Positions 2,898 to 16,166 of a stretch of 64,000 nt of DNA are shown piece by piece. Origin of the DNA: Treponemataceae bacterium (GTDB lineage: Bacteria > Spirochaetota > Spirochaetia > Treponematales > Treponemataceae); NCBI GenBank assembly GCA_024680915.1, contig JAILBN010000015.1, forward strand, positions 1 to 64,000, in the 5' to 3' direction. The stretch's first letter is position 1. Each line of letters begins with the position of its first letter. The notes below the pieces were generated by a model. The model had not been told where the DNA came from. It ran no database searches and saw only the letters and a list, made by a program, of their open reading frames with translations. Made by a program: the position numbers and the translations under genes.

Positions 2898-2944
2898 GTT
2901 AGCCTCTGCTAACTAAAATTACTCTTTTTGCAATTTATTGTCAA
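2898..2944 (-). promoter_or_regulatory. ecf operon promoter with GTTAGC-type operator
   Basis: On the minus strand there is TTGACA (2939-2944), a 17-base spacer and TAATTT (2916-2921), a near-consensus sigma-70 promoter. Directly downstream lies a perfect palindrome, GTTAGC-N4-GCTAAC (2898-2913), whose arms extend to 11 bp (TTTTAGTTAGC). The operator covers the predicted transcription start, and its spacer holds the AGAGG used as ribosome binding site for ecfT. Confidence 0.75.
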
Positions 2945-5021: not shown

Positions 5022-5037
5022 ATTAGCAGTTGCTAAC
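5022..5037. promoter_or_regulatory. GTTAGC-type operator, copy 2
   Basis: ATTAGC-AGTT-GCTAAC matches the palindrome at 11 of 12 arm positions. It overlaps the -35 of the predicted rightward gpmA promoter and lies upstream of the leftward chemoreceptor promoter, so it could serve both genes. Confidence 0.6.
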
Positions 5038-5082
5038 ATTTTTACTAAATGTTATATTTATTTGCGGTTAGTAATGGCTAAC
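5030..5082 (+). promoter_or_regulatory. gpmA promoter with second GTTAGC-type operator
   Basis: TTGCTA (5030-5035), a 17-base spacer and TATATT (5053-5058) form a plausible promoter. GTTAGT-AATG-GCTAAC (5067-5082) follows 8 bases later, the same downstream position as at ecfT, the MATE gene and copA. With the copy at 5022-5037 the promoter is bracketed by two operators, as expected for tight repression. Confidence 0.65.
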
Positions 5083-5114
5083 TGCAACAAATCACATTTC
5101 AGAGGTTTCATAAA

Positions 5115-5861
5115 ATGACAAAACTTGTATTGGTTCGCCACGGAGAAAGTGAGTGGAACAAGCTCAATCTTTTCACAGGTTGGACTGACGTTGAGCTTAG
5201 TGACAAGGGCCGGGAGGAAGCGACCGCAGCAGGGAAACTGTTAAAGGCAGAAGGCTACGATTTTGACATCTGCTATACTTCATACTTAAAAAGAGCAATA
5301 CACACCCTCAACGGCATTCTTTTGGAAATGGACAGGGAATGGCTTCCGGTAATAAAGACATGGAAACTCAATGAGCGCCACTACGGAGATCTCCAGGGAA
5401 AAAACAAGGCAGAGGCAGCAGAGAAATTCGGAGAGGCTCAGGTTAAGATTTGGAGACGTTCCTTCGACGTCAAGCCCCCGGCACTCTCTGACGATGACGA
5501 GCGCTCAGCGAAAAAACAGGCTATGTACCGTGACGTTGACGAAAGCTTCCTGCCTCAGAACGAAAGTCTTGAGACAACTATTGAGCGTGTAGTCCCTTAT
5601 TTCCTGGAAGAAATCAAAGCTCAGATGAAAGCAGGAAAAAGAGTAATCATCGCGGCCCACGGAAACAGTCTCCGTGCCCTTGTGAAATATCTGGATGATC
5701 TTACACCAGAACAGATCCTCGAGGTCAACATCCCCACGGGAACACCTCTGGTATATGAGTTCGATGACAATTTCAAGGTTATAAAGCATTATTATCTTGG
5801 AGACCAGGAAGCAATTGCAGCAAAAATGAACGCAGTCGCCAATCAGGGCAAAAAGAAATAA
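5115..5861 (+). CDS. gpmA: 2,3-bisphosphoglycerate-dependent phosphoglycerate mutase
   Basis: This 248-residue enzyme interconverts 3- and 2-phosphoglycerate in glycolysis. It has the catalytic RHGESEWN motif with the phospho-accepting histidine near residue 9, a [10 protein letters not shown] segment, and the second histidine in [10 protein letters not shown]. The length is normal for dPGM. The ATG follows AGAGG. This form needs no metal, unlike the manganese-dependent iPGM. Its promoter sits between two GTTAGC-type operators in a block of metal genes, and in Treponema pallidum a phosphoglycerate mutase gene lies at the end of the TroR-regulated tro operon, so metal control of this step has a precedent. 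Confidence 0.95.
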
Positions 5862-5889: not shown

Positions 5890-5927
5890 AGCCTGTACCG
5901 GAAAGAAGGGTACAGGCTATTTTTTTA
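5890..5927 (+). terminator. Rho-independent terminator of gpmA
   Basis: AGCCTGTACC and GGTACAGGCT form a 10-bp stem with a 9-base loop, followed by a T-rich run. It lies 28 bases after the gpmA stop and overlaps the stop codon of the convergent fezC-like gene, so it may serve both directions. Confidence 0.85.
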
Positions 5928-6228
5928 TTCGTTCTACGGCTAATCCAATTTCTCGGATTTGATCAAGGATTTCTTCCTTTTTCCTTGGAGTGTAGAATCT
6001 GAGCTTAGGCTCCAGCTTCAACAAACATGGAAGCAAAGGCTTAAGGGCTTCTGGTGACACCGCATCTTCAGGATAAAGGACAAGTATACTGGAAGTACTT
6101 TCCCTATAAGAGATCTCAGCAATGGAACATATTTTTTTCACGACCTCAACAGCAGCCTTTCTTATATCACCATCACGAAGTATAGGATCACGGAATCTCA
6201 GTCTTCCTGGAGAATAATTATACTGCAT
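5917..6228 (-). CDS. HMA2/FezC-like small protein with arginine-rich PGR motif
   Basis: A 103-residue soluble protein, last gene of a three-gene leftward cluster. Its first residues read YNYSPGRLRFRDP, closely matching the HSLPGRIRIR start of the P-type ATPase upstream; no CxxC is present. The rest looks like a ferredoxin-fold HMA2-type domain with a basic C-terminus. The start follows AGGAG and lies 15 bases after the ATPase stop. In ferrosome (fez) clusters a small protein of this kind accompanies FezB. The role is therefore inferred from context: an accessory or iron-handling partner of the ATPase. The alternative is an accessory to a plain metal exporter. Confidence 0.55.
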   Translation of the reverse strand: MQYNYSPGRLRFRDPILRDGDIRKAAVEVVKKICSIAEISYRESTSSILVLYPEDAVSPEALKPLLPCLLKLEPKLRFYTPRKKEEILDQIREIGLAVERIKK

Positions 6229-6243
6229 AAGAAGAGACTCCTA

Positions 6244-8337
6244 TCATTCGTCTAAAACTGGCTGCATGGCATTTATACAGAACGCTATAGTGGAAGTGTT
6301 ATGCATTACAGCCGCAAGGGAAGGAGATATGAGACCCAAAAGGCCCAACATCATAAAAGCACTGTTCACGGCAACTATTCCCCTGTTGTCCATATCTATT
6401 TTTTGTATAAGACGCCTTCCTAAAACACGGGTTTTGTACAAGCCCTCGAGACCATCCTCGCTGAATAAAACGATATCCGCAGTCTCAGCAGTTATGTCGG
6501 CGCAGTCCCCCATGGCAATTCCTGCATCGGCGGCCGCCAGTGCAGGCGCATCATTTATGCCGTCACCAATCATAATTACAGTATGACCTTTCTCTTTCTG
6601 TTCTTCTATATAATTGAATTTATCCTCAGGCAAAGCCCTTGAAAAATACTTATCAATTTTAGTGACCTCAGCGGCTTTTCTGGCGGCCCCCTCGTCATCA
6701 CCCGTGATCATCACGCAGTTTTTTACTCCGCTCTTATGAAGCTTCTTGATAACCTGGGGAGCATTTTTCCTTACAGGGTCGTTCACTGCGAATATACCGA
6801 CAACCTCTTTCTCCTCCGCAAGATACAACAGAGACTCTCCGTTTTCAATCGCCTCTTTCTGAATTTTCTCCAAGTCTTCTGGCATATTGACTTTCTCATC
6901 CTCAAAAACGAAATGCCGGCTACCTATGACAAGCTTCTTTCCATTAAGTTTTGTCGCAATGCCATGGGCAACAATATATTCAACTTTTGAATGTTTTTCA
7001 GGATGCAGGATACCTCTTTCAGCAGCAGCTTTTACAATAGAGCTAGCTATAAGATGAGCGAAATGCTCCTCGATACATGCAGCCAGGGCAAGCACATCCT
7101 TTTCATCTCTGCCTGCGAAAGCTATTATCCTGGAAAGCTGAGGAGTCGCCTCAGTCAAAGTCCCTGTCTTATCAAAAATCACGGTATCGGCTTTAGACAC
7201 TTCCTCCAGGTATCTGCCTCCCTTAACGATGATACCCTTCTCGGCAGCTTCCTTCATAGCACTCAACACTGCAATCGGAGAAGCCAGCTTCATGGCACAG
7301 GAATAGTCCACCATCAAAGTCGCCATAACTTTTTTCAAATCCCCAGTAAAAAGAAAGACCATAAGAGAAAGTAAAAAATTATATTTCACAAGGGTATCTG
7401 CCAATTTCTCGGAACGAACCTGGGAAGAGACCTTAAGCTGCTGAGAATTATCAATCATAGTCAGAATATTCTGGACTTTTGTCTGACTACCCACTGCTCT
7501 TACTTCCACAAAAAGCTCCCCTTCCTGAACCAAAGTACCGGCAAACACGGACTTTCCCTGTCTTTTTTCCACAGCAAGAGGCTCCCCTGTTATTGAAGCT
7601 TGGTTCACGAGCCCTTCTCCTCTAAGGACGGCACCATCCACAGGAATCACATCACCTGTGCGGACAGCCACAACATCACCTTTTCTTATCATATGCAGAG
7701 AAACAGTTTTCTCTATATCTCCATCCACCTTCTGCACCTGATCATTCTGAGACAGAAGCTTGTCAGCAAGATCACTGTAGGATTTCTTTTTTGTGAATTC
7801 CTCTATAGTGTCACCAACATTCAGCAAAAAATTGATATTGGATGCGGTTTTTGTGTCGCCAGTAAGCAAGGCCATTGAAATGGCAGCTGCATCAAGAACC
7901 TCAGACTTGAACAAGGAACCCTTCCCTATTTGTGCCAAGCCTTTGAGAATACGGGGACTTAATGTAAAAAGACGTAAGAAGAGACGGACATGCACAGGCA
8001 GTATAAGCTTGACATAGTGCATGACCGTCATGGCGGCAAGTTCAAACAAAAGACTGGCTTTTTCTTCAGGCTCCTCCACGTCCTCCAGAAGTTCCTTATT
8101 ATTCAAGTATTTATCGCCGAGTGCTAAAAAATAAGCTTTTATATGTTTCTCATTAAGTTTTTTTACATCATAATATATAAGGAAGGATCCAGTGGTATAA
8201 TTCACCGAAACCTGGATCATTCCATCCTGTACAGAAAGCAGACTATATGCCAAAGCCGCCTGCCGACTAGAAATTTTACTTTTATCATATCGAATACGTA
8301 TACGTCCCGGCAGAGAATGCTTTACTGTAAAATCCAT
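6244..8337 (-). CDS. FezB-like P1B-type heavy-metal ATPase (SCA motif, arginine-rich N-terminus)
   Basis: A 697-residue P-type ATPase with actuator TGE (about 250-252), phosphorylation site DKTGT (389-393), TGDD and GDGINDAP. The membrane metal motif is SCA (346-348) instead of CPC, and the N-terminus has no CxxC; it begins with an arginine-rich HSLPGRIRIR. SCA is the mark of the P1B-6 group, and an R-rich N-terminus in place of a metal-binding domain is described for FezB, which loads iron into ferrosomes. The ATG directly follows the stop of the FezA-like gene (TGATATG), so translation is coupled. A promoter with a GTTAGC-type operator lies upstream of the cluster. A CtpC-like manganese or iron exporter is the main alternative. 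Confidence 0.7.
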   Translation of the reverse strand: MDFTVKHSLPGRIRIRYDKSKISSRQAALAYSLLSVQDGMIQVSVNYTTGSFLIYYDVKKLNEKHIKAYFLALGDKYLNNKELLEDVEEPEEKASLLFELAAMTVMHYVKLILPVHVRLFLRLFTLSPRILKGLAQIGKGSLFKSEVLDAAAISMALLTGDTKTASNINFLLNVGDTIEEFTKKKSYSDLADKLLSQNDQVQKVDGDIEKTVSLHMIRKGDVVAVRTGDVIPVDGAVLRGEGLVNQASITGEPLAVEKRQGKSVFAGTLVQEGELFVEVRAVGSQTKVQNILTMIDNSQQLKVSSQVRSEKLADTLVKYNFLLSLMVFLFTGDLKKVMATLMVDYSCAMKLASPIAVLSAMKEAAEKGIIVKGGRYLEEVSKADTVIFDKTGTLTEATPQLSRIIAFAGRDEKDVLALAACIEEHFAHLIASSIVKAAAERGILHPEKHSKVEYIVAHGIATKLNGKKLVIGSRHFVFEDEKVNMPEDLEKIQKEAIENGESLLYLAEEKEVVGIFAVNDPVRKNAPQVIKKLHKSGVKNCVMITGDDEGAARKAAEVTKIDKYFSRALPEDKFNYIEEQKEKGHTVIMIGDGINDAPALAAADAGIAMGDCADITAETADIVLFSEDGLEGLYKTRVLGRRLIQKIDMDNRGIVAVNSAFMMLGLLGLISPSLAAVMHNTSTIAFCINAMQPVLDE

Positions 8338-8338
8338 A

Positions 8339-8547
8339 TCAATTTTTCGCCTTTGAGTCTTTTTCTGCTTTTATATCCTCAGCATCCTCTTTTAAAATTT
8401 CAAAGTATTCTTTCGCATCATTTTTAAGCTGGATACCACCGGCCATAACCTTTGAAAAACCTTTCCTAAAAGTATCCGTCTTCAAGAAAGTGATAGCAGC
8501 TGCACCGGCAAGCATACCCCACAAAAATTTTTTCCACCATCAGTCAT
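8339..8547 (-). CDS. FezA-like small GxxxG/alanine-rich membrane protein, reading frame broken at a homopolymer
   Basis: The ORF track starts this 61-residue protein at a TTG (8524) with no good ribosome site. Upstream is a perfect one: AGGAGGTTTTT then ATG (8545-8547), but that ATG is out of frame and reaches a stop after 21 codons. Between them lies A6T5. One extra base in this run would give MTDGGKKFLWGMLAGAAAIT and onward, joining the best start to the rest of the protein. The product would have one hydrophobic helix with small residues (GMLAGAAAITFL), then a charged tail, which fits FezA-type proteins that sit beside FezB. The frame break may be a sequencing error, a decayed gene or a slippage switch. 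The internal ATG at 8515 could also start a shorter product. Confidence 0.6.
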
Positions 8548-8601
8548 AAAAACCTCCTGTTTTGCAAATAAGCTATAGTCAATTATTCACAATAAATATA
8601 A

Positions 8602-8659
8602 ATTAGCAATGGTAAACTTTTTAAGCATAAAACTAAAAGATTTTGGAAGAAACTGTCAA
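8602..8659 (-). promoter_or_regulatory. Promoter and imperfect GTTAGC-type operator of the fez-like cluster
   Basis: On the minus strand there is TTGACA (8654-8659), a 17-base spacer and a weak -10 TTAGTT (8631-8636). GTTTAC-CATT-GCTAAT (8602-8617) lies downstream and is an imperfect copy of the palindrome. The layout repeats that of the stronger sites at ecfT and the MATE gene, but the -10 is weak, so the promoter is tentative. Confidence 0.5.
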
Positions 8660-8928: not shown

Positions 8929-10293
8929 ATGAGTGAAAAACAGGACACAAGAGAAATGCTTGTATCCGGAAATGTTTTCAAAACAATGCTATCATTAAGT
9001 GTACCGGCTATTCTCGGAATGGTCGTTATAGGGCTCTATAACTTTATGGATGCCGTCTTTGTAGGTCAGATGGTCGGTCCGGTTGCAATGACGGCTGTAA
9101 AAGTATCCTATCCTTTCACCTTGATAAACAGTGGTATAGCCACATTGGTAGGTGTAGGCTCATCTTCTGTGCTTTCCCGCGCCATAGGAAAACGTGACCA
9201 GGAAACCATAGATAAGATTATGGGAAACCTTATCGCCACAGTATCAGTTCTTTCCTTAATCGTCATTGTTTGCGGGCTTATATTCACAAGGCAGCTTCTT
9301 ACCCTTGCCGGAGCACAGGGAGAAGTTCTTGAGGAAGCAGTCAGATACCTGAGGATCGTATTCTGCGGCTCTCTCTTCGTCAATCTTGGACAGTCCACCA
9401 ACATGATTATGAGAGGAGAAGGAAAGCTGAAGAAAGCCATGATAATAATGGCTACGAGCGCTATCCTCAACATAGCCCTTGACCCTGCCCTTATCGTAAT
9501 TTTCGGAAAGGAGAAGGGAGTTCTTGGAGCGGCCTTCGCTACAATCATATCCCAGTTAGTGCTCATGATCATGTCTTTCTTCTATTTCATAAAAAAGAGC
9601 ACAACTGTAAGGATTCATAAGATCCGCTTTGAGAAAACTCTTTTCAAACCAGTATTAAGCGTCGGCGTTTCAGCCATGCTCATGCAGGTCATGTCCATGG
9701 TGCAGCAGACCATAGTTTACAACACTGCCCAGAAATGGGGAGGTAACGAATGGCAGACAATTCTTGGAGCCTCCTTGAGTCTCCAAGCCTTCTCCTTCAT
9801 TCCTCTTTGGGGAATAAGTCAGGGCTTCCAGCCTGCAATCGGAACCAACTACGGAGCGAAGAACTACGACAGAGTGGGAGCCTTCACCAAGACCTTCATG
9901 ATATCCGCCACTGTACTGGCTCTGGTCTTCTATGTTCCCATAATGAGCTTTCCTTCAAAGATGCTTTCCATGTTCATCACAGACGCAGCCATCGTAGCAG
10001 CAGGCGCTCCTATGCTCAGAGTACTTTTCATGACCTACATAAGCTACGGTATCCTTATCCTTTCCATAACCTTCTTCCAGGCCATAGGAAAGGCAACAGC
10101 AGCATCTGTGCTTGCTCTGCTCCGCCAGCTGGTGCTCTTCCTGCCACTGGTGATCATATTGCCACAGCTTTTCGGGCTTGAGGTGAAGGGTATTTTCTAT
10201 GCCCAGGCAGTAACAGATCTTGTGGTTCTACTCATGGCAATAATCTTCCTTATAAGTGCATTCAGCAAAATGAGGAAAGAAAAGGCAGCATAA
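8929..10293 (+). CDS. MATE-family efflux transporter
   Basis: A membrane protein of 454 residues with about 12 hydrophobic segments and the two-fold MatE layout, an inner-membrane antiporter that expels organic cations or small natural products using an ion gradient. I chose the ATG at 8929, preceded by GGAGG at good spacing, rather than the track's 8899, which lies inside the operator. The gene has its own promoter with a GTTAGC operator and a direct repeat further up, and it is followed after 31 bases by an AraC-family regulator. Iron-regulated MATE/MFS plus AraC pairs elsewhere often move siderophores, but the substrate here is unknown. Confidence 0.9.
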   Translation: MSEKQDTREMLVSGNVFKTMLSLSVPAILGMVVIGLYNFMDAVFVGQMVGPVAMTAVKVSYPFTLINSGIATLVGVGSSSVLSRAIGKRDQETIDKIMGNLIATVSVLSLIVIVCGLIFTRQLLTLAGAQGEVLEEAVRYLRIVFCGSLFVNLGQSTNMIMRGEGKLKKAMIIMATSAILNIALDPALIVIFGKEKGVLGAAFATIISQLVLMIMSFFYFIKKSTTVRIHKIRFEKTLFKPVLSVGVSAMLMQVMSMVQQTIVYNTAQKWGGNEWQTILGASLSLQAFSFIPLWGISQGFQPAIGTNYGAKNYDRVGAFTKTFMISATVLALVFYVPIMSFPSKMLSMFITDAAIVAAGAPMLRVLFMTYISYGILILSITFFQAIGKATAASVLALLRQLVLFLPLVIILPQLFGLEVKGIFYAQAVTDLVVLLMAIIFLISAFSKMRKEKAA

Positions 10294-12459: not shown

Positions 12460-12492
12460 GACACCCCTTTTTCCGGGGTGTCCATTTTTTTT
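12460..12492 (+). terminator. Strong hairpin between feoB and the Cys-rich gene
   Basis: GACACCCC and GGGGTGTC form an 8-bp GC-rich stem. A T8 run follows it on the plus strand, where no gene is seen upstream. In the feoB direction there is no uridine run, so within the feo mRNA it is more likely a 3'-end stabiliser or processing site that lowers expression of the distal gene. Confidence 0.5.
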
Positions 12493-14887
12493 ATTTTGCT
12501 GCCTTAGGCTTTCTTACGAGAGCCCAGATACATGCAGCGAAAACTGCTACAGCAAAGATAAGACCAACAACATTCACATTGCCTGTGAAAAGACAACCGA
12601 ACTGATAGATTACAAAGGATACCGCATATGCGAAACCACACTGCCAACCGATTGCAGCCCAAGTCCATTTAGCACTGTTCATCTCACGCTTGATAGCACC
12701 GATTGCTGCGAAACATGGAGCACAAAGCAGGTTGAATACAAGGAAAGAATAACCTGCAAGCTGAGAAAGGTCAACAAAGTCAAGGACACCGAATACACCG
12801 ACAACCTCTTCCTTAGCGACGAGACCCATGATGGTAGCAATAACAGCACGGATGTTTCCGAAGCCAAGAGGAGCAAAAATCCATTTAAGGGCATTTCCGA
12901 TATATCCCAGAACTGAAAGCTCAAGCTCCATCTCTGGATCGAAGCCGAAGCCGTCACCTGTATTTCCGAATACTGAACCAACCCAGATTACGATAGAAGA
13001 AAGAAGGATGATTGTTCCAGCTTTCTTGATGAAGGACCAGCCACGTTCCCACATGGAGCGCATAACGTTTCCGAAGGTAGGCCAGTGGTAAGCAGGAAGC
13101 TCCATAACGAATGGTGCGACTTCACCCATGAAAGGCTTTGTCTTCTTCAGGATTATACCAGAGCAGATGATAGCTGCAATTCCAAGGAAGTATGCGGAAG
13201 GAGCAACCCAGGATCCACCCCAGAGAGAATTACGGAAGAGAGAAGCTGCTATCAAAGCAATGATAGGAAGCTTAGCACCACAAGGAATGAAGGTAGTTGT
13301 CATGATGGTCATACGGCGGTCACGCTCGTTCTCGATTGTGCGGCTTGCCATAATACCAGGAACACCACAACCTGTTCCAATCAGCATAGGAATGAAGGAT
13401 TTTCCAGAAAGACCGAAGCGGCGGAAGATACGGTCCATGATGAAGGCGATACGAGCCATGTATCCACAAGCCTCAAGGAAGGCAAGGAAGATGAAGAGCA
13501 CAAGCATCTGAGGAACGAATCCGAGGACTGCACCAACACCACCTACGATTCCGTCCAGGATAAGTCCCTTAAGCCACTCAGCACAACCGATGGCATCAAG
13601 ACCACTCTCAACAAGAACAGGAATACCAGGAACCCACCAGCCATAACCGTCAGCAGGATCAGGGAAGTCTTCGCTCTCAAAGGCTTCATCCAAAACAGAA
13701 ATATCATAACCAGCTTCAGCCATATCCTCTACGTAGAAGCCGTAGGACTCTTCGAAAGCACCGTAATCCTCGTCCTCAATTGCTCCCAGAACCTCATCAG
13801 CACCGATTACACCAGCGTCAGCAGCTGCACTTGTAACAGTGATGATATCATCAGTCCACATATTCTCCTTAGCGAACTCGGTCACGGCATCATCATAATC
13901 ACCGCTACCCTTTCCGAAGAAGAAGAAACCATCACCGAAAAGACCATCGTTGGTCCAGTCAGTAACCCAGGTACCGACAGTGGTAACGGATACGAAATAT
14001 ACGAGCCACATTACCACAGCGAAGATTGGAAGAGCCAGCCAGCGGTTTGTGACTACCCGGTCAATCTTATCTGAAACAGAAACACCACCTGAAACCTTCT
14101 TATAGCAGGTCTTGATAATCTGTCCGATGTAGATATAGCGCTCGTTTGTGATGATTGACTCAGCATCATCCTCGAGCTCTTTCTCGGCGGCCTTTATATC
14201 ACCCTTAACATGCTCCAGCTTATCAGCTGGGATACCAAGCTTATCGATAATCTTTTTGTCGCTTTCGAATACCTTGATAGCGAAGAAACGCTGTTTCTCC
14301 TCAGGAAGCTCATGCACAACGGCTTCCTCAATATGAGCCAGAGCATGCTCAACCACACCAGAGAAAGTGTGCTGAGGAACTGCGCTTCCCTTTGATACTG
14401 CCTTAAGGGTCTCTTCAACAGCTGCATCGATTCCCTCACCCTTGAGGGCTGAAATCTCGACCACAGAGCAGCCAAGAGCCTTGGAAAGCTCCTTGATATT
14501 GATTTTATCACCCTTCTTGCGTACCACGTCCATCATGTTGACAGCAACTACAACAGGAATACCAAGCTCTGTAAGCTGTGTCGTAAGATACAGGTTACGC
14601 TCAAGGTTCGTTCCGTCAACGATATTGAGGATTGCATCCGGTTTCGCGTCAAGGAGGTAGTTTCTAGCCACCACCTCTTCAAGTGTATATGGAGAAAGGG
14701 AATAAATACCAGGAAGGTCTGTGATTATTACCTTATCCTGAGCGGAAGCTCTTTTATAAACGCCTTCCTTCTTCTCAACAGTAACTCCCGGCCAGTTTCC
14801 TACGAACTGGTTTGAACCGGTCAATGCATTGAACAACGTTGTTTTACCACTATTCGGGTTTCCAGCCAATGCGATCTTTATTTCCAT
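12491..14887 (-). CDS. feoB: Ferrous iron transport protein B (GTPase-coupled Fe(II) importer)
   Basis: A 798-residue FeoB. The N-terminal G domain has GNPNSGKTT, DLPGIYSLSPYTLEE and NMMD; a GDI-like helical region follows (about 170-260), then the membrane domain with two Gate motifs, including LIGTGCGVPGIMASRTIEN and FIPCGAKLPI. It imports Fe2+. I start at the second ATG (14887), seven bases after AGGAGG; the track's first ATG sits on top of that site. An acidic insertion of about 90 residues lies between the first membrane helix (near 300) and the next, rich in D and E and predicted outside the membrane. A promoter with a GTTACC-type operator lies directly upstream. Confidence 0.95.
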   Translation of the reverse strand: MEIKIALAGNPNSGKTTLFNALTGSNQFVGNWPGVTVEKKEGVYKRASAQDKVIITDLPGIYSLSPYTLEEVVARNYLLDAKPDAILNIVDGTNLERNLYLTTQLTELGIPVVVAVNMMDVVRKKGDKINIKELSKALGCSVVEISALKGEGIDAAVEETLKAVSKGSAVPQHTFSGVVEHALAHIEEAVVHELPEEKQRFFAIKVFESDKKIIDKLGIPADKLEHVKGDIKAAEKELEDDAESIITNERYIYIGQIIKTCYKKVSGGVSVSDKIDRVVTNRWLALPIFAVVMWLVYFVSVTTVGTWVTDWTNDGLFGDGFFFFGKGSGDYDDAVTEFAKENMWTDDIITVTSAAADAGVIGADEVLGAIEDEDYGAFEESYGFYVEDMAEAGYDISVLDEAFESEDFPDPADGYGWWVPGIPVLVESGLDAIGCAEWLKGLILDGIVGGVGAVLGFVPQMLVLFIFLAFLEACGYMARIAFIMDRIFRRFGLSGKSFIPMLIGTGCGVPGIMASRTIENERDRRMTIMTTTFIPCGAKLPIIALIAASLFRNSLWGGSWVAPSAYFLGIAAIICSGIILKKTKPFMGEVAPFVMELPAYHWPTFGNVMRSMWERGWSFIKKAGTIILLSSIVIWVGSVFGNTGDGFGFDPEMELELSVLGYIGNALKWIFAPLGFGNIRAVIATIMGLVAKEEVVGVFGVLDFVDLSQLAGYSFLVFNLLCAPCFAAIGAIKREMNSAKWTWAAIGWQCGFAYAVSFVIYQFGCLFTGNVNVVGLIFAVAVFAACIWALVRKPKAAK

Positions 14888-14904
14888 TTTCATACCTCCT
14901 GTTT

Positions 14905-14933
14905 TAATTACCTACAGACAACCATTGTGTTAA
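14905..14933 (-). promoter_or_regulatory. feoB promoter with GTTACC-type operator
   Basis: Minus strand: TTAACA (14928-14933), a 17-base spacer and TAATTA (14905-14910). The spacer holds GTTGTC-TGTA-GGTAAT (14907-14922), a variant of GTTATC-N4-GGTAAC. This gives feoB its own promoter inside the operon. The placement between -35 and -10 matches the feoA promoter at 15518-15546. Confidence 0.55.
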
Positions 14934-14940
14934 AAAAAAA

Positions 14941-15162
14941 TTACTCAACACAGATTATCGTTGCGTCGGCTTTCCTAAGACTAAGCTCATAACCGCGAAC
15001 AGTAACTTCAACAGGATCTCCTAAAGGAGCGACCTTCCGAACGAAAATCTCGGTTCCCTTAGTAATTCCCATATCCATAATTCTGCGTTTCACGGCGCCC
15101 TCACCATTCAGCTGAACTACCCGTACAGTCTGTCCGACCGGTACTTCTTTCAATGTCTTCAT
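14941..15162 (-). CDS. feoA: FeoA family protein (proximal to feoB)
   Basis: A 73-residue SH3-like protein of the FeoA family, with the usual core of a hydrophobic strand, KRRIMDMGIT, a turn, then a GDPVEVTVRGYELSLRK segment. It works with FeoB in ferrous iron uptake, probably by touching its cytoplasmic domain. I place the start at 15162, preceded by AGGAGG at seven bases; the track's start adds 13 unlikely residues. It is the second of two feoA genes in tandem, 54 bases before feoB. Confidence 0.9.
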   Translation of the reverse strand: MKTLKEVPVGQTVRVVQLNGEGAVKRRIMDMGITKGTEIFVRKVAPLGDPVEVTVRGYELSLRKADATIICVE

Positions 15163-15204
15163 CCTTGTTCCTCCTGTTCTGAACAAAAGAGAATGTCTCA
15201 AGAA

Positions 15205-15220
15205 CTTACCTGTTCCTAAA
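15205..15220. promoter_or_regulatory. Weak GTTACC-type site upstream of proximal feoA
   Basis: Minus strand TTTAGG-AACA-GGTAAG lies within a 17-base spacer between TTCAAG and TAAGTT. It repeats the geometry of the other two feo promoters, but the match to both the operator and the promoter is poor. Confidence 0.3.
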
Positions 15221-15278
15221 ACTTTCTTGAATTAATTACTACAAGATAAATAAAAACTTCCATACGAAAAGGAAGAAT

Positions 15279-15494
15279 TCATACATAAATATTCGCTGCC
15301 ATCTCTTTGCTTATAGCCACTCGTGACTCTTTGACGGCAACTATGATATTTCCGTTGATCTCCGAAACCACACGGACAGCCCCACCTGTAACGAAGCCCA
15401 TATTCTCAAGATGCTGCCTGACTTCCTGTTTACCAGAAATTTTCTTGATGATGTTTTCTTCGCCAGCATCTGCCAGACTAAGCGGTATATTCAT
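15279..15494 (-). CDS. feoA: FeoA family protein (distal)
   Basis: A 71-residue second FeoA-type SH3-like protein, with VRQHLENMGFVTGGAVRVVSEINGNIIVAVKESRVAISKEMA matching the family core. It is the first gene of the feo operon. GAGG precedes the ATG (15494). It is quite different in sequence from the neighbouring FeoA, so the pair probably form different contacts with FeoB rather than being a recent duplication. The promoter upstream has a clear GTTACC-type operator. Confidence 0.9.
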   Translation of the reverse strand: MNIPLSLADAGEENIIKKISGKQEVRQHLENMGFVTGGAVRVVSEINGNIIVAVKESRVAISKEMAANIYV

Positions 15495-15517
15495 AAAGCT
15501 CCTCTAATCATTATCCT

Positions 15518-15546
15518 AATATAGTTACCTATAGATAACCATTTAA
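15518..15546 (-). promoter_or_regulatory. feo operon promoter with GTTACC-type operator
   Basis: Minus strand: TTAAAT (15541-15546), a 17-base spacer and TATATT (15518-15523). The palindrome GTTATC-TATA-GGTAAC (15524-15539) fills the spacer. Binding there would exclude RNA polymerase. The iron-type DtxR repressor encoded 300 bases away is the obvious candidate. Confidence 0.7.
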
Positions 15547-15632
15547 CAAAAAAAACACAGAAATGAACAAAAACACTCCAATCTGCAACAGACTTTACGG
15601 TTACTTAAAGGCAACTTTTTAGTATGATTATA

Positions 15633-15648
15633 GTTACCTGTGAATAAC
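15633..15648. promoter_or_regulatory. GTTACC-type operator between feo and dtxR-like gene
   Basis: GTTACC-TGTG-AATAAC is one mismatch from a perfect inverted repeat. A looser copy (GTTACT-TAAA-GGCAAC) lies at 15600-15615. Together with the site at 15524-15539 they form a cluster in the divergent region, which suggests cooperative binding that also covers the repressor's own gene. Confidence 0.55.
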
Positions 15649-15719
15649 TTGTCAACACCTTGGGACATAAGCTGAGGAAAATAGTACTTGTTACATCACC
15701 ACAAGCTGCAAGGAAATGC

Positions 15720-15806: not shown

Positions 15807-16166
15807 ATGATCCAAGAATCAGGAGAAATGTATCTCGAAACAATACTTCTTCTTTCAAGAAAAAAACCGGATGTCCATGCGATAGACATCTCTGACGAAA
15901 TGAATTTCTCAAAACCCAGTATAAGCCGGGCCTTAGGCAGACTGAAAGCTGAAGGCTGCATCACCATAAATGACGAGAACCATATTTATTTGACAGAAAA
16001 AGGACGGGCCATAGCCGAGAACATCTATGAGAAGCATGAGGTTCTCTCCAAGCTTCTTATGTCTCTGGGAGTTGACGAAGAAACAGCCACAGCCGATGCC
16101 TGCAAGATAGAACACGTTATCAGCGACAAGACCTTTGCTGCCATAAAGGCGAAATTCAACCTTTAA
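15807..16166 (+). CDS. DtxR/MntR-family metal-dependent repressor, iron-type metal ligands
   Basis: A 119-residue regulator of the short DtxR/MntR class: a winged helix (residues 1-65) and a dimerisation region, without the C-terminal SH3 domain. The motif ACKIEHVISD (98-107) places Cys99, Glu102 and His103 where DtxR has Cys102, Glu105 and His106; MntR has Glu at the first of these. Met8 aligns with DtxR Met10 and His77 is also kept. The residue pattern therefore points to iron rather than manganese sensing. It is divergent from feoAAB with GTTACC-type operators between, so repression of feo by iron-loaded protein is the likely job. GGAGG precedes the ATG. Confidence 0.9.
   Translation: MIQESGEMYLETILLLSRKKPDVHAIDISDEMNFSKPSISRALGRLKAEGCITINDENHIYLTEKGRAIAENIYEKHEVLSKLLMSLGVDEETATADACKIEHVISDKTFAAIKAKFNL

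Follow-up and report, generated by a model that had tools for sequence, protein, structure and literature searches.

The locus analysed here raises the question of whether treponemes store iron in ferrosomes. Ferrosomes are membrane-bound iron storage granules that are known from few bacteria, and they aid C. difficile against host iron withholding. The window, a 64,000-nucleotide stretch of contig JAILBN010000015.1 from a Treponemataceae bacterium, contains three genes that a first-pass annotation had read as a FezA-like, a FezB-like and a FezC-like gene on one strand, next to an iron-regulation block. The three genes are all on the minus strand, and the adjoining block is present at 12.2-16.2 kb, with two feoA genes, feoB, a FeoB-associated protein and a DtxR-type repressor (Table 1). 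From homology, gene order, motifs and a shared operator, it is very likely that the operon belongs to the fezAB kind of locus. The best explanation, to which we assign a probability of about 0.62, is a spirochaetal fezAB-type locus that would pump Fe(II) into membrane compartments for storage.

Table 1. Features of the window that bear on the fez operon and its control.
Feature	Position	Strand	Description and basis
fezA-like small membrane protein gene	8339..8524	-	in-frame ORF from TTG; a single GxxxG helix followed by an acidic/Ala-rich tail; alignment with 22 relatives
Expected 5' end of fezA	8525..8559	-	CAGGAGG ribosome site 8553-8559, ATG 8545-8547, A-run 8528-8533 one base short versus relatives; direct reading
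FezB-like P1B-6 ATPase, 697 aa	6244..8337	-	N-terminal HMA_2 with GRIRIR; SCA in TM4 (aa 346-348); HN in TM6 (aa 679-680); Pfam/NCBIfam, reciprocal best hit, motifs, tree
Stand-alone HMA_2 protein, 103 aa	5917..6228	-	soluble, without CxxC; PF19991, E 1.3e-7; AlphaFold pLDDT 91; kept in relatives
MATE family efflux transporter gene	8929..10293	+	divergent from fezA; Pfam/NCBIfam
feoB and two feoA genes	12491..15494	-	neighbouring ferrous iron uptake; Pfam/NCBIfam
DtxR/MntR-type repressor gene	15807..16166	+	only PF02742 protein found in the window's genome; candidate metal sensor
Perfect palindrome TTAGCATATGCTAA	8751..8764	.	fezA/MATE intergenic region
Perfect palindrome TTAGCAAATGCTAA	8892..8905	.	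just upstream of the MATE gene
Degenerate site, 6/8 fixed bases	8603..8616	.	in the place of the perfect TTAG-N6-CTAA that relatives carry near fezA
Two operator palindromes, starts 5023 and 5068	5023..5081	.	between chemoreceptor gene and gpm
Operator palindrome	2899..2912	.	upstream of ECF transporter operon with Trep_Strep S component

The middle gene encodes an ATPase with E1-E2 ATPase, hydrolase and N-terminal HMA_2 domains in Pfam, and its annotated traits are all there: SCA in TM4, an arginine-rich PGRIRIR start and no N-terminal CxxC. When compared with two C. difficile genomes, which were picked by a 16S signature, it matches one ATPase over the full length with 41% identity (539 bits; next match 224). 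In the reverse search against the window's genome, this C. difficile protein finds the window ATPase first (539 bits; next 209); the C. difficile protein is here identified as FezB by homology and its pairing with a DUF6110 protein, not by locus tag. Both pumps have D[YF]SCA in TM4, HN in TM6 and a GRxRxR N-terminus, and in the window protein the two membrane motifs read VDYSCAMKLA and HNTS. According to PMC9374683, DUF6110 proteins are encoded alongside P1B6 pumps, which carry HN in TM6; CtpC is P1B6-like, yet has CPC in TM4. In our motif comparison the CtpC of Rhodococcus has CPC and HN; in the window ATPase neither CPC nor SPC was found, and SCA stands in their place. With HN in TM6 and without CPC, the window protein has the marks of a P1B-6 pump. 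Its predicted structure is of moderate confidence (pLDDT 76, pTM 0.57), and for this reason we took only the domain order from the model.

A maximum-likelihood tree places the spirochaete pumps in one clade (support 100/99) with C. difficile FezB and with a Deinococcus pump that is DUF6110-linked. Next to this clade are the SCA pumps of Azospirillum, Arcobacter and Vibrio, while the CopA and CtpC types fall outside, CtpC with support 97/93 and, like Deinococcus, on a long branch. The tree was made without the FezB proteins of D. magneticus, R. palustris and Shewanella. A grouping with CtpC had been set beforehand as the result that speaks against FezB; in the tree the window ATPase groups with C. 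difficile FezB instead. Together with the reciprocal best hits and the common motifs, this supports the annotated FezB-like identity. It also bears on a simpler explanation, namely that the gene encodes an ordinary P1B exporter, of CtpC type or otherwise, for Mn, Zn, Cd or Cu, beside an unrelated small gene. The general P1B fold and an NCBIfam match to a heavy-metal ATPase would fit such a pump. However, both the motifs and the tree contradict it, and a FezA homologue adjoins the ATPase in nearly all relatives; we consider it highly improbable.

The small protein with the annotated GMLAGAAAIT sequence is the second member of the pair. In an alignment of the window protein and 22 relatives, GxxxG and KEDxxDxxAE are invariant. 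Pfam matches of the treponeme proteins to DUF6110 are under the curated cut-off, and a profile comparison with C. difficile FezA gives an hhalign E-value of 7e-10 (32% identity over 62 residues), with the invariant GxxxG common to both. In C. difficile a DUF6110 protein (E 2e-23) is directly upstream of the ATPase, a position that is conserved in the treponemes. The FezA-like assignment is thus borne out by the profile comparison. According to PMC11651100, C. difficile fezAB is the neighbouring pair CD630_05910-05920, and PMC12574912 describes both proteins as needed for ferrosomes and the genes as repressed by Fur. The treponeme operon resembles this pair in its pump and in the FezA homologue directly upstream, and would also resemble it in an iron-starvation type of control. 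However, the tail of C. difficile FezA is longer, no HMA_2 or DUF4405 gene was recognised beside the C. difficile pair, and C. difficile is under Fur control, whereas the operator here is TTAG-N6-CTAA.

DUF6110 is related to DUF1490/PacL, and DUF6110 proteins are called PacL-like by authors of the effluxosome work (PMC9374683). This gives the main rival to the storage reading: a PacL-like FezA that gathers the ATPase into plasma-membrane patches, from which Fe(II) or another metal is exported, with no storage organelle. The PacL helix relies on a glycine pair, as stated in the effluxosome papers, and can be compared with the invariant GxxxG of treponeme FezA; further, FezA of one relative weakly matches DUF1490 (E 5e-4). 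The zinc effluxosome PacL1-CtpC of M. tuberculosis also combines a one-helix scaffold with a P1B6-like ATPase that has HN in TM6. It differs in the CPC of CtpC, in the C-terminal DLHDHDH metal motif of PacL1 and in a scaffold from DUF1490 rather than DUF6110. In the window, the ATPase has neither CPC in TM4 nor a place beside CtpC in the tree, and FezA has no His and no DLHDHDH-like C-terminal tail, so that the effluxosome combination of a DUF1490 scaffold and a C-terminal metal-binding motif is absent. In addition, the operon shares the operator described below with flavodoxin and uptake genes, whereas a pump against iron excess would need the reverse control. We consider an efflux platform, though the main rival, unlikely. 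C. difficile FezA is itself a DUF6110 protein and hence PacL-like, so the scaffolds of ferrosomes and effluxosomes appear to be homologous. Neither of two effluxosome papers (one of them PMC9374683) mentions ferrosomes.

The beginning of the window's fezA deviates from its relatives. The annotation had placed the start at 8547; the ATG there is preceded by a good ribosome site, yet it does not share the reading frame of GMLAGAAAIT, because the A-run of the window gene is one base shorter than in all in-frame relatives. Every in-frame relative of the near group reads M(T/A)DGxKKFLWG(VxAG) in a single frame. The sole in-frame start, the TTG at 8524, would shorten the helix. Use of this TTG, an assembly error and a recent lesion are all possible. 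If it is a lesion, fezA would be a pseudogene by a recent one-base deletion and the system would be made by relatives only, which is compatible with the storage reading for those relatives. Besides the break itself, the dN of fezA from the window to its relatives is 0.205 versus 0.087 among the relatives, about twice the amino-acid divergence, with synonymous sites saturated, while the fezB values are 0.161 and 0.129. The promoter site near fezA is degenerate, and fezB is split in another genome (G077). On the other hand, the remainder of fezA past the break is still conserved, neither fezB nor the HMA_2 gene is disrupted, translation could start at the TTG, and the source is a 134-contig assembly, hence an indel error is possible. 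Decay in the window's genome is thus possible but somewhat doubtful. Nevertheless, since fezA appears frameshifted here, iron granules are less sure for this genome than for relatives with an intact operon, such as T. denticola.

For the third gene the annotation was right about the SPGRLRFR opening but not about the protein. FezC as described in PMC10979944 is a haem protein or cytochrome of DUF4405-like type. The window protein is a soluble, stand-alone HMA_2 domain in which a membrane helix was looked for and none was found; the FezC-like reading is not supported. Its predicted model has the order strand-strand-helix-strand-strand-helix, the same as residues ~1-72 of FezB, and an invariant GRxRxR at the second strand. 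From this order and motif it follows that the protein is a free copy of the FezB N-terminal domain. A Foldseek search with the model gave nothing significant, with weak matches only, to Atx1 and GolB. The FezABC locus of Desulfovibrio magneticus also has a FezA/FezB pair and a third gene; however, the third gene there encodes the haem protein, so that a locus of this type is not what we find in the treponeme. The soluble window protein may act as an iron adaptor or as a regulator.

The exact sequence TTAGCANNTGCTAA is found 3 times in the window versus ~0 expected, and TTAG-N6-CTAA 6 times versus 1.6 expected. The metal-type operator that had been proposed is therefore real as a palindrome. 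However, its two perfect sites near the operon, within the region common to fezA and the MATE gene, are ~204-345 bp away from the ATG of fezA, and the site closest to fezA is the degenerate one at 8603. Among 28 fezA promoters checked, 17 have a perfect TTAG-N6-CTAA (shuffled mean 0.1, maximum 2; the relatives are not independent), and 11, the window's among these, have none. The TTAG palindrome was not found in the fezA promoter of T. denticola. A stricter form, TTAGC-N4-GCTAA, occurs 12 times in the window's genome versus 3 for a reversed control, and 4 of the 12 are in the first 9 kb of the window. Genome-wide, the palindromes neighbour the ECF transporter with Trep_Strep, a flavodoxin with a partner gene, ABC pairs, the MATE gene, a chemoreceptor and gpm; a NifU/IscU-like gene, named by eye, is also beside a TTAG-type palindrome. 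Induction of flavodoxin upon iron loss is well established, and an iron-starvation regulon is likely given the palindrome near flavodoxin. TTAG-N6-CTAA thus probably marks such a regulon, with the fez operon as a member.

The window's genome has one DtxR-type and two Fur-family regulator genes, and the DtxR-type protein encoded at 15807 is a candidate for binding the palindrome. Recognition of the TroR type is not supported: the T. denticola tro site, ATTTTGATATATCAAAAT, is unlike TTAG-N6-CTAA. The feoA-dtxR intergenic region (15500-15650) has other palindromes of a GTTACC type, GTTACCTATAGATAAC and GTTACCTGTGAATAAC, which suggests a second type of metal operator. In the window region 5023-5861, the gpm gene (phosphoglycerate mutase) is preceded by two TTAG-N6-CTAA palindromes; in T. 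pallidum gpm is within the metal-regulated tro operon (PMC2628430).

How widespread is the operon? In the Treponema family the ATPase is present in ~59 of 145 genomes, counted from the search listing, with 46-80% identity, after which the identity drops to ~30-35%. Nearly all inspected loci have the FezA-like gene upstream of fezB and the stand-alone HMA_2 gene downstream. Matches to C. difficile FezB with E < 1e-85 are found in 34 of 296 sampled genomes of the phylum, mostly from the Treponema family. In the window's own genus the presence is patchy, as only 2 of 7 genomes carry the ATPase. Further, two other spirochaete genomes have a broken fezB (G077, where it is split, and G279), so the loss of the system recurs. 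One genome, G049, contains the 75-base tro promoter and a 30-base flaA probe of T. denticola with zero mismatches (sequences from PMC2628430), and by this match it is near-certainly T. denticola, a cultured strain. Its fezA, fezB and HMA_2 genes are all intact. In the literature searched we found no paper on treponeme ferrosomes and none on treponeme dense granules. The strongest ferritin-superfamily match in the window's genome is Dps-like, and the next ones look rubrerythrin-type or flavoprotein-fused; no clear classical ferritin is therefore seen.

SCA-type P1B ATPases together with YtxH-type small proteins are also found on plasmids of Azospirillum, Arcobacter and Vibrio, so ferrosome-like clusters may be mobile. 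The Azospirillum and Arcobacter clusters share this pairing with the treponeme operon, and that of Azospirillum has HMA_2-type proteins as well; they differ in having more genes and in being sister to the C. difficile/treponeme clade. We take these multi-gene clusters to resemble the six-gene fez set of Rhodopseudomonas palustris. On a Priestia megaterium plasmid, three HMA_2 proteins flank a related ATPase; TM4 of this pump contains DFICG, and the pump is outside the FezB clade.

For the storage reading, the metal, the direction of transport, the formation of granules and the role of the HMA_2 protein are what we infer from the genes. FezA, which has one helix with a GxxxG face and ends in an acidic tail, probably gathers FezB in the inner membrane, and this P1B-6 pump with its SCA site probably moves Fe(II) into a membrane-enclosed compartment for storage. 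The HMA_2 protein probably docks on FezB or on its cargo and acts as a soluble adaptor for iron or as a regulator, and the operon is probably switched within the TTAG-N6-CTAA iron-starvation regulon. That treponemes make iron granules with this operon is, judged from sequence, reasonably probable. A bolder version is tentative, and we hold it at somewhat under even odds: a three-part ferrosome machine in treponemes, T. denticola too, with the HMA_2 protein as the iron adaptor of FezB and a non-Fur operator in much of the family, that shares an ancestral scaffold-plus-pump design with mycobacterial effluxosomes through a PacL-like FezA.

The FezA family (DUF6110) corresponds to the PacL-like proteins of the mycobacterial effluxosome work, which links two literatures. 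If the bolder version is true, ferrosomes and mycobacterial effluxosomes would come from one ancestral design of scaffold plus pump. With the fez operon found across Treponemataceae and in cultured T. denticola, iron storage in spirochaetes is open to direct experiment.
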